From contig RECY01000042.1 of NCBI GenBank assembly GCA_007693785.1, forward strand, positions 1 to 38,981: a stretch of DNA of 38,981 nucleotides, written 5' to 3'. The position numbers were made by a program, and so were the translations under genes. The first letter of the stretch is position 1. Every line of letters begins with the position of its first letter. The DNA is from Phycisphaerales bacterium. GTDB taxonomy: Bacteria; Planctomycetota; Phycisphaerae; Phycisphaerales; UBA1924. This document shows, piece after piece, positions 3,926 to 8,137 of this stretch. The notes below the pieces were generated by a model. The model saw only the letters and a list, made by a program, of their open reading frames with translations. It ran no database searches and was not told where the DNA came from.

Positions 3926-4400
3926 GCCCCGGCAATCGCGATTCTCCGCCCGCCCGTGGTTCACTCCTGCGATCGGCGTGCCTAGTATCGCGGCCCACCC
4001 GATCCAAAATCGGAACGCGTGGGTGTAAGAAACGCTTCGTCGCGGCTCGGAACGGGCCGCGACAAGCGGGATTGTGCAGCGAAGACCGGCGGTTTCCCGC
4101 GTGAAGGAAGCCGTCGGGTCCGGGAGGCCCGGGACCGTCGCCCGCGAGGGCGAGCGGGTCAGGGAACCGCCGGACGGAGTCAGTGTTGTGCCCGGATCGC
4201 CGCTCGCCGCGTCGGTCCGGGGTGGAGCCGAGTCGATGCCGACCGCTCCGGGCCTCGGGCGACGTTGTCCGAGGCGGGCTGAGTCGGGCCTTTGCGGGCC
4301 CGTCTTGAGCCGAATCCGGTGTGGCGGCTAGGCGAGGGTTGGGTCGGATCGGGCACTGGGCCCGGGCGTCCCGCAAGAGGCCGAAGGCGTAAGGCGACGA
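3926..4400. other. 475-bp spacer between rplC and rplD
   Basis: No convincing gene: the short open frames here have no recognisable similarity and overlap one another. A good promoter-like pair lies at 3960-3988, so much of the gap may be a leader of about 400 nt for rplD. A small hairpin (CGGGCC ... GGCCCG) lies near 4287-4304. L4 is the autogenous regulator of the S10 operon in E. coli, but no sequence similarity to that leader is visible here. Confidence 0.6.
3960..3988 (+). promoter_or_regulatory. Candidate promoter for the rplD-onward transcript
   Basis: TTCACT (3960-3965) and TAGTAT (3983-3988) are spaced by exactly 17 nt, just after the rplC stop. Each hexamer matches four of six sigma-70 consensus positions. 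The -10 context cctagtat recurs upstream of rpmJ (17042-17051). It suggests that rplD begins a new transcription unit. Inference only. Confidence 0.5.
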
Positions 4401-6491: not shown

Positions 6492-6773
6492 ATGAGTCGG
6501 AGTCTGAAGAAGGGCCCGTATGTCGATGAGAAGCTCTACCGCAAGGTGGAGAAGCTCGTCGAGGACGGCCGGCGCGAGCCGATCAAGACCTGGGCCCGTC
6601 GCTGCACGATTGTGCCGGAGTTCGTCGGGCACACGTTCCAGGTGCACAACGGGCGCGTCTTCATGGACGTGTTCATCACCGAGGACATGGTCGGGCACAA
6701 GCTCGGCGAGTTCTCGCTGACGCGGACCTTCCGCGGGCACACGAACAAGAAGGAAGGCATCAAGTCCCGCTGA
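6492..6773 (+). CDS. rpsS: 30S ribosomal protein S19
   Basis: Head protein of the 30S subunit that contacts S13 and the A-site finger bridge. The 93-residue product begins [15 protein letters not shown] and contains the classical signature block around [14 protein letters not shown] (residues 42-55) and [16 protein letters not shown], which identify it without doubt. The ATG at 6492 is preceded by GGAAGGA at a spacing of 8 nt. The spacers to rplB (119 bp) and rplV (115 bp) are long for this gene pair. Confidence 0.98.
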
Positions 6774-6888
6774 TCGCCCCGCCCGCGGACGGGCGAGCGA
6801 ACCACAAGGCGGAGCTTGGCGGGACGGCAGGATTGGGTTTGATGGTGTTGGGGCGGCACGGGTCGCCCTTGGAAGGCAGGAGCTGCAC

Positions 6889-7434
6889 GTGAGGCTGCGA
6901 GCGGAAAAGCTGAAAGCGGCGATGGCGGGCGCGGGCGTGGACGCCGAAGCGCTCGCCGGCGCGATCGAGCGGACGGGCCTTCGCGGTCCGGCGGCCCGCT
7001 CGGCGATCAACAACTGGATGAGCGGACGCGACCACCCCAGGTGCAAGGCGTCCGACGTCGCCCGTCTCGCCCAGGCCTGCGGCGTCGCGCCGCGTGACCT
7101 GGTCCGGTTCGAGTCCAAGATCAACCACCACCGCGGGAGCACCCAGAAGGCCCGCCTCGTCGTGGACCTGGTCCGCGGCAAGCCGGTCGATCAGGCCCTG
7201 AACCTGCTGGAGTTCAGCTCCAAGCGCGCGGCCGTCAACGTGAAGAAGGCGCTCCTCGCGGCGATCGCCGACGCCGAGAACGCCGACGCCGACGTGACCC
7301 GACTCGTGGTCACCGAGGTCCGTGTCGACGAGGGCCCGCAGATCAAGCGTTTTCAGCCCAAGGACCGCGGGCGCGCCCACGCGATCATCAAGCAGACGAG
7401 CCACATCACCGTGGGTGTCGAGGAGCGGAGCTGA
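6889..7434 (+). CDS. rplV: 50S ribosomal protein L22 with an N-terminal XRE-type helix-turn-helix extension
   Basis: Residues about 77-178 are L22, whose hairpin lines the exit tunnel: KARLVVDLVRGK, VKKALLAAIADAEN, VDEGPQIKRFQPKDRGRAH and KQTSHITV. Residues about 3-74 are an added domain that reads as an XRE/Cro-type helix-turn-helix: LAGAIERTG, a turn, SAINNWMSGRDHP as recognition helix, then DVARLAQACGVAPRDLVRF. The GTG start at 6889 has AGGAG at a spacing of 6 nt. The only internal ATG (residue 44) would start inside the recognition helix, and none lies near the L22 boundary, so a true fusion is the simplest reading. Typical L22 is about 110 residues; this is 181. Only 1 nt separates it from rpsC. 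Confidence 0.95.
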   Translation: MRLRAEKLKAAMAGAGVDAEALAGAIERTGLRGPAARSAINNWMSGRDHPRCKASDVARLAQACGVAPRDLVRFESKINHHRGSTQKARLVVDLVRGKPVDQALNLLEFSSKRAAVNVKKALLAAIADAENADADVTRLVVTEVRVDEGPQIKRFQPKDRGRAHAIIKQTSHITVGVEERS

Positions 7435-7435
7435 C

Positions 7436-8137
7436 ATGGGACAGAAATCGCACCCGTTTGGTCTGAGGCTCGGGATCACCGAGACGCACCGCAGCCGCTG
7501 GTACGCGCCCAAGGCGCTCTACGGCGAGCTGCTGATCGAAGACCAGAAGATCCGCAAGTACCTCGACGATCGGCTCAACCGCCGCCCGCCGAACGCGGCC
7601 GTCAGTGACATCCTGATCGAGCGCACCCGCGAGGAGCTCAAGATCCTCGTGAAGACCGCCCGCCCGGGCCTGGTCATCGGCCCCAAGGGCGCCGAGGTCG
7701 ACGCGATGAAGCAGGAACTGCAGTACATGACCGGGCGGAAGGTCTCGATCTCGATCATCGAGATCAAGCAGCCCGACATGGACGCGCAGCTGGTCGCCGA
7801 CGGCGTCGCGGAGCAGCTCAAGAAGCGGATGGGCTTCCGCCGCGTCGTGAAGATGCGTGCCGAGGGCGTGATGCAGGCCGGGGCCAAGGGTGTGAAGATC
7901 CAGATCTCGGGTCGTCTCGGCGGCGCCGAGATGAGCCGCACGCTGGACACGCGCTTGGGCTCGCTCCCGTTGAGCACGCTGCAGGCGAACATCAACTACG
8001 GGTTCGCGGAAAGCCGCACCCCGTACGGGACGATCGGCGTGAAGGTGTGGATTTACAAGGGCCTGTACACGGACGAGGTCCGCGAGGACGAGGGGACGGC
8101 CGCCGGGGCTCGCGCCCGGGCGCGTGGCCGCCGCTGA
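7436..8137 (+). CDS. rpsC: 30S ribosomal protein S3
   Basis: Part of the mRNA entry pore and helicase activity of the 30S subunit. The 233-residue product begins MGQKSHPFGLRLGI and has a KH domain with the GXXG-type loop VIGPKGAEV (residues 79-87), followed by the C-terminal S3 domain with GAKGVKIQISGRLGGAEMSR and GTIGVKVWIYKG. The ATG at 7436 lies 1 nt after the rplV stop, so the two are coupled. It ends with a short Arg/Ala tail. Family length and organisation are ordinary. Confidence 0.98.
   Translation: MGQKSHPFGLRLGITETHRSRWYAPKALYGELLIEDQKIRKYLDDRLNRRPPNAAVSDILIERTREELKILVKTARPGLVIGPKGAEVDAMKQELQYMTGRKVSISIIEIKQPDMDAQLVADGVAEQLKKRMGFRRVVKMRAEGVMQAGAKGVKIQISGRLGGAEMSRTLDTRLGSLPLSTLQANINYGFAESRTPYGTIGVKVWIYKGLYTDEVREDEGTAAGARARARGRR

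Follow-up and report, generated by a model that had tools for sequence, protein, structure and literature searches.

Does the L22 gene of this Phycisphaerales bacterium encode a ribosomal protein with a genuine helix-turn-helix (HTH) domain, and what might such a domain do on a protein that is universal and lines the exit tunnel? The gene occupies positions 6889-7434 of the window (the whole analysed stretch of 38,981 nucleotides; all features named here lie on the forward strand) as an open reading frame of 181 amino acids with a GTG start codon (6889..6891). A Shine-Dalgarno-like AGGAG at 6878..6882, read directly from the sequence, precedes this GTG by 6 bases; the first-pass annotation had called the motif strong. 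Its further statement that no start codon lies near the L22 boundary is also correct: GTG1, ATG12, GTG17 and ATG44 are the only in-frame starts upstream of the L22 core, and none follows between codon 44 and the boundary at about residue 76. The core itself, residues 79-177 (7123..7419), is a full L22 scoring above the curated cut-offs of both Pfam Ribosomal_L22 (E 4e-32; 110.9 bits, cut-off 28) and TIGR01044 (E 7.8e-33; 112.8 bits, cut-off 73.65).

The fused gene sits as a single copy in the S10 cluster, flanked on its 5' side by S19 (6492..6773; Pfam Ribosomal_S19) and on its 3' side by S3 (7436..8137; Pfam Ribosomal_S3_C and KH_2), whose ATG follows the L22 stop codon after a gap of 1 base. 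It provides the sole L22 (uL22) match in the assembly, which is 95% complete. NF008917, a model of an L22/unknown-domain fusion that we take to be the Mycoplasma one, matched in the L22 part only and far below its cut-off. Elsewhere in the ribosomal cluster, the L3-L4 spacer is long (about 475 bases, 3926-4400) and contains several imperfect inverted repeats.

The N-terminal segment is predicted to fold as an XRE/Cro-type HTH domain

The first-pass annotation had described an XRE-type HTH joined in frame to an intact L22, and had named a profile search and structure prediction of the N-terminus as checks; both came out in its favour. The domain comprises residues 1-74 (6889..7110) and is recognised by Pfam HTH_31, by AlphaFold2, by fold searches and by its retention in relatives. 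When residues 1-76 were scanned alone, HTH_31 matched residues 6-72 with 29.8 bits (E 7.4e-7; cut-off 27); with the whole protein the score was 26.3 bits, slightly below the cut-off. Among 28 relatives scanned at E<=0.01, HTH_31 was found in 18 and HTH_26 in 7. AlphaFold2 modelled the whole protein with a mean pLDDT of 93.1 and a pTM of 0.83 (62 sequences), and the HTH alone with a pLDDT of 95.1 (36 sequences).

DSSP assigned helices to residues 5-15, 19-25 (helix 2; 6943..6963), 34-44 (helix 3, the nominal recognition helix; 6988..7020) and 54-64 (helix 4; 7048..7080) of the model, followed by a strand at residues 72-82 (7102..7134) which runs into L22 and thus forms the junction of the two parts without a linker. 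Sequence comparison showed the turn between helices 2 and 3, residues 26-33 (6964..6987), to be lengthened and variable in length. The segment G46-RDHPRCK-53 (7024..7047), a loop well conserved within the family of this bacterium as judged from column entropies, is a candidate docking loop.

In a Foldseek search of solved structures the HTH model had no match at E<=0.001, the best E being 9.8e-3. After realignment the PDB matches were mostly XRE/Cro proteins with Z values of 8-10, a list headed by C.Csp231I (10.0) and including SinR (9.0), P22 c2 (8.8) and 434 Cro (8.1). XRE-like domains of the enzymes PhpD (9.6) and HppE (8.8) as well as ribosome-bound EDF1 (7o81_AU; 8.0) scored in the same range, and yeast Mbf1 on the disome (9f9s) was among the Foldseek matches. 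Z values in this range count as only moderate for helical domains of such small size, so profile and model together carry the fold call, and a shared fold is by itself no proof of function. Of the 50 distinct sequences of solved structures listed for the HTH-L22 profile, none had a best-matching stretch that covered both HTH and L22.

Three other explanations were rejected. A chance match to an HTH is ruled out by the profile, the model and the relatives taken together, and an assembly chimera by the recurrence of the fusion in many genomes. A wrong start or frame is ruled out by a start codon at the aligned position in 62 of 63 loci from the two fused families of this order, and by purifying selection from residue 2 onwards; the remaining locus, L085, is a split copy from genome G051 and was left out of the alignment counts given below for these families.

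The fusion is general in one family and recurs in other orders

In the following, f1 denotes the family of this bacterium, f1 to f6 families of its order, and the other-order clade the fused families outside that order, which we take to be Sedimentisphaerales. A search for the same architecture in relatives had likewise been named as a check. Within the order, 294 of 301 genomes matched, and all 118 from f1 did so from query residue 1-7. A second f1 search found a match in 35 of 37 genomes, our own included, each starting at residue 1-4; the two genomes without an L22 match are 82% and 86% complete. In f4, 5 of 6 genomes matched from residue 2-4. The sixth, G051, a genome of 2 contigs, carries the HTH-L22 in two overlapping frames (L085/L247) with a break at about residue 37-40, reflecting either sequencing error or decay. 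All 26 rows listed for f2, f3, f5 and f6, out of 170 matching genomes, start at or beyond residue 48 and thus represent plain L22.

Across the class, at least 88 of the 283 L22-matching genomes in a sample of 298 are fused. Besides f1 (27/27) and f4 (2/2), the fusion is carried by seven families of other orders, in every L22-matching genome of each: f13 (6/6, including G274, which was checked separately), f18 (4/4), f20 (14/14), f23 (24/24), f24 (9/9), f26 (1/1) and f27 (1/1). One fused clade presumably includes cultured species. Among the matches listed, the remaining class rows start at residue 21 or later, with G057 at 21 and a few at 36-60, several of the latter running over stop codons; further class genomes that were re-checked start at residue 44 or later, except for G057, the fused G274 and the split G051.

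Outside the class, no row among the matches listed from a phylum sample (392 genomes, 201 matching) starts before residue 18 of the N-terminal profile. The earliest are G650 (18-99), which spans a stop codon, and G706 (20-70), which was rejected as a fused L22 because the match lies in a 912-residue frame and belongs to another protein. Two peptide patterns from close relatives, scanned against genome_contigs (84,980 species), returned 74 loci. Sixty-two were fused, 60 of these being Planctomycetota by NCBI ranks and mostly Phycisphaerae; the other 12 were plain L22 from Chloroflexota and Acidobacteriota. Two fused records, L148 and L158, bear the titles Cyanobacteria bacterium and Isosphaera sp.; both are probably Phycisphaerae under a wrong label. 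The fusion, its predicted fold and its conservation are established.

The HTH of both fused clades belongs to one subfamily

Profiles built from the HTH alone for f1/f4 and for the other orders aligned over 74 columns without a gap, with 39% identity and E 5.5e-27 in this single pairwise comparison. As a rough control, the f1/f4 HTH profile was found to match the L22 locus of four other-order genomes (E 5.6e-17 to 8.7e-9). It had no match at E<=1 among the other XRE proteins of its own genome. Stand-alone source genes were sought in 9 fused genomes, in which the HTH profile matched only the L22 locus at E<=1, bar two weak matches in two of them (E 0.06 and 0.45); two plain genomes yielded zero matches at E<=1.

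A tree built from S19, the L22 core and S3 (68 rows) by a quick method, with an outgroup that is not monophyletic and with S3 missing in one row, required 3 changes of the trait. Twenty fused rows formed one clade with an SH-aLRT of 94, and f1 and f4 fell within their own order, yet were not joined together. The L22 core alone (106 columns) rejected neither a single fused clade (p_AU 0.197) nor an own-order clade of fused and plain proteins (p_AU 0.596), so that the core does not separate transfer from loss. Given one HTH subfamily common to both fused clades, a single origin is likely, and both several losses and transfer fit the data.

The HTH is under purifying selection and departs from classical XRE regulators

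In 12 close pairs, some of which share a species, dN/dS ranged from 0 to 0.30 for residues 1-74 and from 0.018 to 0.18 for the L22 part; the HTH is under purifying selection. Its evolutionary rate exceeds that of the L22 part by a factor of 1.6-5.6 in 11 of the 12 pairs, with the reverse in one. W43 and P50 are invariant in the 62 aligned f1/f4 proteins. The canonical role of certain nominal HTH positions is to read bases. In the 57 f1 rows three of these positions are highly variable, with entropies of 2.73-2.83 bits at 34, 35 and 37, and three others, 33, 38 and 41, are near the domain mean of 1.64 bits (1.56-1.85 bits), the loop 46-53 lying at 0-1.59 bits. Conservation within helix 3 concerns N42 and W43, and positions 10, 13, 32 and 67 of the HTH vary as much as this helix. 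Median net charge of the HTH is +5 in f1 and +6 in f4; it is +3.5 (range -4 to +9) in the other-order clade, which also lacks the RDHPRCK loop.

Two hallmarks of DNA-binding XRE regulators are a Glu after the aromatic residue and a short turn that links helix 2 to helix 3. Three XRE proteins of the same genome (L184, L185 and L186) served for comparison; L183 was left out, and L188, which is below the cut-off, differs. Relative to these, the turn of the fused proteins is 4-14 residues longer: the distance from A23 to W43 is 20 residues in 65 of 82 fused proteins, with a minimum of 17, and 13 in the three own-genome proteins, as counted by eye. The Glu occurs in none of the 62 f1/f4 proteins, in 3 of 20 from the other-order clade and in 3/3 of the own-genome XRE proteins. 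On this comparison, the long turn, the lost Glu and the variable positions 34, 35 and 37 argue against classical reading of DNA.

Expression signals at the L22 locus

GTG is the start codon of 51 of 57 L22 genes in f1, compared with ATG for S19 and S3 (56/56 each). A second set, taken from genome_contigs, gave GTG in 53 of 62 and ATG in 60/60 and 61/61 for the neighbours S19 and S3, with 34 of the 62 L22 proteins identical to ones of the first set. L22 starts with ATG in f4 (5/5) and in the other-order clade (20/20); the plain set provides no start-codon control because ATG was preferred when its L22 starts were called. The median S19-L22 spacer is 54 bases in f1 (n=116, pooled), 28 in f4 (n=5), 36 in the other orders (n=20) and 37 in plain genomes (n=57).

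No strong shared operator-like dyad was found in 59 regions upstream of S10 and 60 S19-L22 spacers. Compared with 30 shuffles, exact dyads with half-lengths of 5 and 6 numbered 5 and 4 upstream of S10 (shuffled maxima 4 and 2) and 3 and 3 in the S19-L22 spacers (2 and 1), a small excess confined to few, related sequences, and 4-base dyads equalled the shuffled maximum at both places (9 vs 9 and 6 vs 6). Those 6- to 10-mers that are frequent in the S19-L22 set resemble the 40 bases of S19 coding sequence that it includes. A sigma-70 scan detected no promoter-like site, although this model says little for the phylum, and no Rfam family reached its gathering score in the window.

What the HTH might do: regulation, recruitment or none

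The first-pass annotation had proposed that L22, when free of the ribosome, acts as an autogenous regulator of its cluster. Read as transcriptional control, this would have surplus non-ribosomal L22 bind ribosomal-cluster DNA through the HTH and lower transcription. The fold is indeed that of DNA-binding repressors such as P22 c2, SinR and C.Csp231I, L22 lies within the S10 cluster, its GTG start in f1, shared by neither S19 nor S3, might be expected of a tuned level, and 5- and 6-base dyads slightly outnumber those of the shuffled sequences. We nevertheless regard such a role as unlikely: the lengthened turn, the Glu lost in 62/62 and the variable positions 34, 35 and 37 speak against it, as do the lack of a strong shared dyad, the 4-base dyads not exceeding the shuffled maximum, the restriction of the longer-dyad excess to few related sequences, the ATG start throughout the other-order clade and the ordinary length of the S19-L22 spacer. 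Autogenous control could also act at the RNA level, the HTH binding S10-operon mRNA or the L22 start region and repressing translation. E. coli L4 sets a precedent, since uL4 controls the S10 operon via the mRNA leader (PMC10931766), and a basic HTH and the GTG start kept in one family are consistent with it; the short S19-L22 spacers (medians of 54 in f1 and 37 in plain genomes) and a window in which no Rfam family reaches its gathering score make it just as improbable as control of transcription.

Little more probable is a sensor of specific RNA or DNA, borne by each ribosome or by the pool of free L22, that would tie gene expression to ribosome supply or to co-translational events; we know of no counterpart of a ribosome-borne regulator built into an exit-tunnel protein. 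The knob might instead serve as a docking hub at the exit site, recruiting a putative partner such as a targeting factor, RNA polymerase or an enzyme that acts on nascent chains. This accords with the location of uL22 at the exit rim (PMC9307626, PMC5071890), and a protein partner needs no change in rRNA, which fits the lack of a 23S indel that tracks the fusion; overall we consider it improbable. A tolerated ancestral fusion without a role of its own, perhaps clipped post-translationally, would explain why the HTH evolves faster than the core in 11/12 pairs and is missing in sister families; purifying selection in close pairs, retention in 118/118 f1 genomes and the invariance of W43 and P50 in the f1/f4 proteins make this the least credible of the alternatives, and a very unlikely one.

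A ribosome-resident domain is the favoured reading

We lean, with a little better than even confidence, towards the HTH being a ribosome-resident knob at the rim of the tunnel exit that is docked on rRNA or a neighbouring protein and is not a transcription factor. By sequence and predicted structure, the one L22 that the cell makes has a folded XRE/Cro-like domain attached rigidly at its N-terminal strand. Because it is the sole L22 copy, the fused protein should enter every 50S subunit, and because the globular part of L22 occupies the subunit surface at the exit-tunnel rim, the HTH would most likely form a basic knob at this place. Docking would probably involve the conserved loop (46-53 in f1) and not the recognition helix, with 23S rRNA or an adjacent exit protein as the contact. 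Once docked, the HTH would stabilise L22 while the 50S subunit is assembled and alter the surface that nascent chains and targeting factors encounter, in a mode of action like that of the ribosome-bound Mbf1/EDF1 HTH, but permanently built in.

This reading draws on the sole copy, the rigid modelled junction, the conservation, the basic charge and published precedents; we infer from these the presence of the HTH on the ribosome, its docking site and its effect. The globular regions of uL22 and of further exit proteins form a crown around the tunnel exit (PMC9307626; also PMC5071890), N-terminal extensions of uL22m adjoin the tunnel path in the fungal mitoribosome (PMC7560712), and the EDF1/Mbf1 HTH is sandwiched between rRNA helices (PMC7486125). 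The fusion has been retained across f1 and several orders, its start and junction being the same throughout. The absence of the HTH from the sister families f2, f3, f5 and f6, as far as rows are listed, indicates that it is dispensable over long times, and the lower charge and missing RDHPRCK loop of the other-order clade make it unsafe to assume a single docking loop for the two clades. Together with this absence, the faster evolution of the HTH and the lack of a 23S indel tracking the fusion count against a resident domain. Of the two suggestions made in the first-pass annotation, the added surface knob is the better supported, its position at the exit rim being the inferred part.

Relation to known systems

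Among the closest known systems is MBF1/EDF1 of archaea and eukaryotes, in which an HTH of the XRE/Cro (cro/C1) type acts on the ribosome. MBF1/EDF1 is, however, a separate and exchangeable protein of the small subunit at the mRNA entry, whereas the HTH described here belongs permanently to a large-subunit protein of bacteria. Ahead of its HTH, MBF1/EDF1 has an N-terminal MBF1/zinc-ribbon part (PMC7486125); in L22 the HTH starts at the first residues and is followed by L22. Chloroplast uL22c and mitochondrial uL22m bear terminal extensions on the same exit-tunnel protein (PMC5071890, PMC7560712). Unlike these extensions as described in the excerpts of the two articles, that of the fused L22 is one compact N-terminal XRE domain; no HTH domain on uL22 extensions is described in those excerpts, the term 'helix-turn-helix' in that of PMC5071890 referring to RNA kink-turns.

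Classical XRE/Cro repressors (P22 c2, 434 Cro, SinR, C.Csp231I) share the fold across most of residues 1-76, whereas the L22 HTH has the longer turn, has lost the Glu (as judged on the three own-genome XRE proteins) and is joined to a ribosomal protein. The XRE-like domains of HppE and PhpD have the same fold within metabolic enzymes for which we know of no link to the ribosome. The first-pass annotation knew of no characterised example of an HTH-L22 fusion, in agreement with our search of open-access literature, in which none of the titles and abstract openings listed describes one. The architecture is real; lineage-specific extensions of ribosomal proteins are already known, and a complete XRE-type HTH as such an extension is unusual. 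If the domain is fixed on uL22 throughout the clade, the tunnel exit would differ from that of the ribosomes solved so far, and a bacterial example would join the HTH folds already known to have a function on ribosomes.

23S rRNA in fused and plain genomes

A coupled change in 23S rRNA was considered and rejected, as no insertion or deletion follows the fusion in both clades in a comparison of 7 fused and 8 plain sequences (one of the latter an outgroup) and E. coli. 23S rRNA was matched in 15 of 18 genomes, our own and two other f1 genomes being those without. One 23S sequence (L288, genome G077) contains an insertion of about 290 bases at E. coli positions ~1851-1875, perhaps an intervening sequence or intron. 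The segment corresponding to E. coli 1426-1450 is nearly missing (0-5 bases) in 14/14 class sequences (L278-L291) and present in the outgroup sequence L277.
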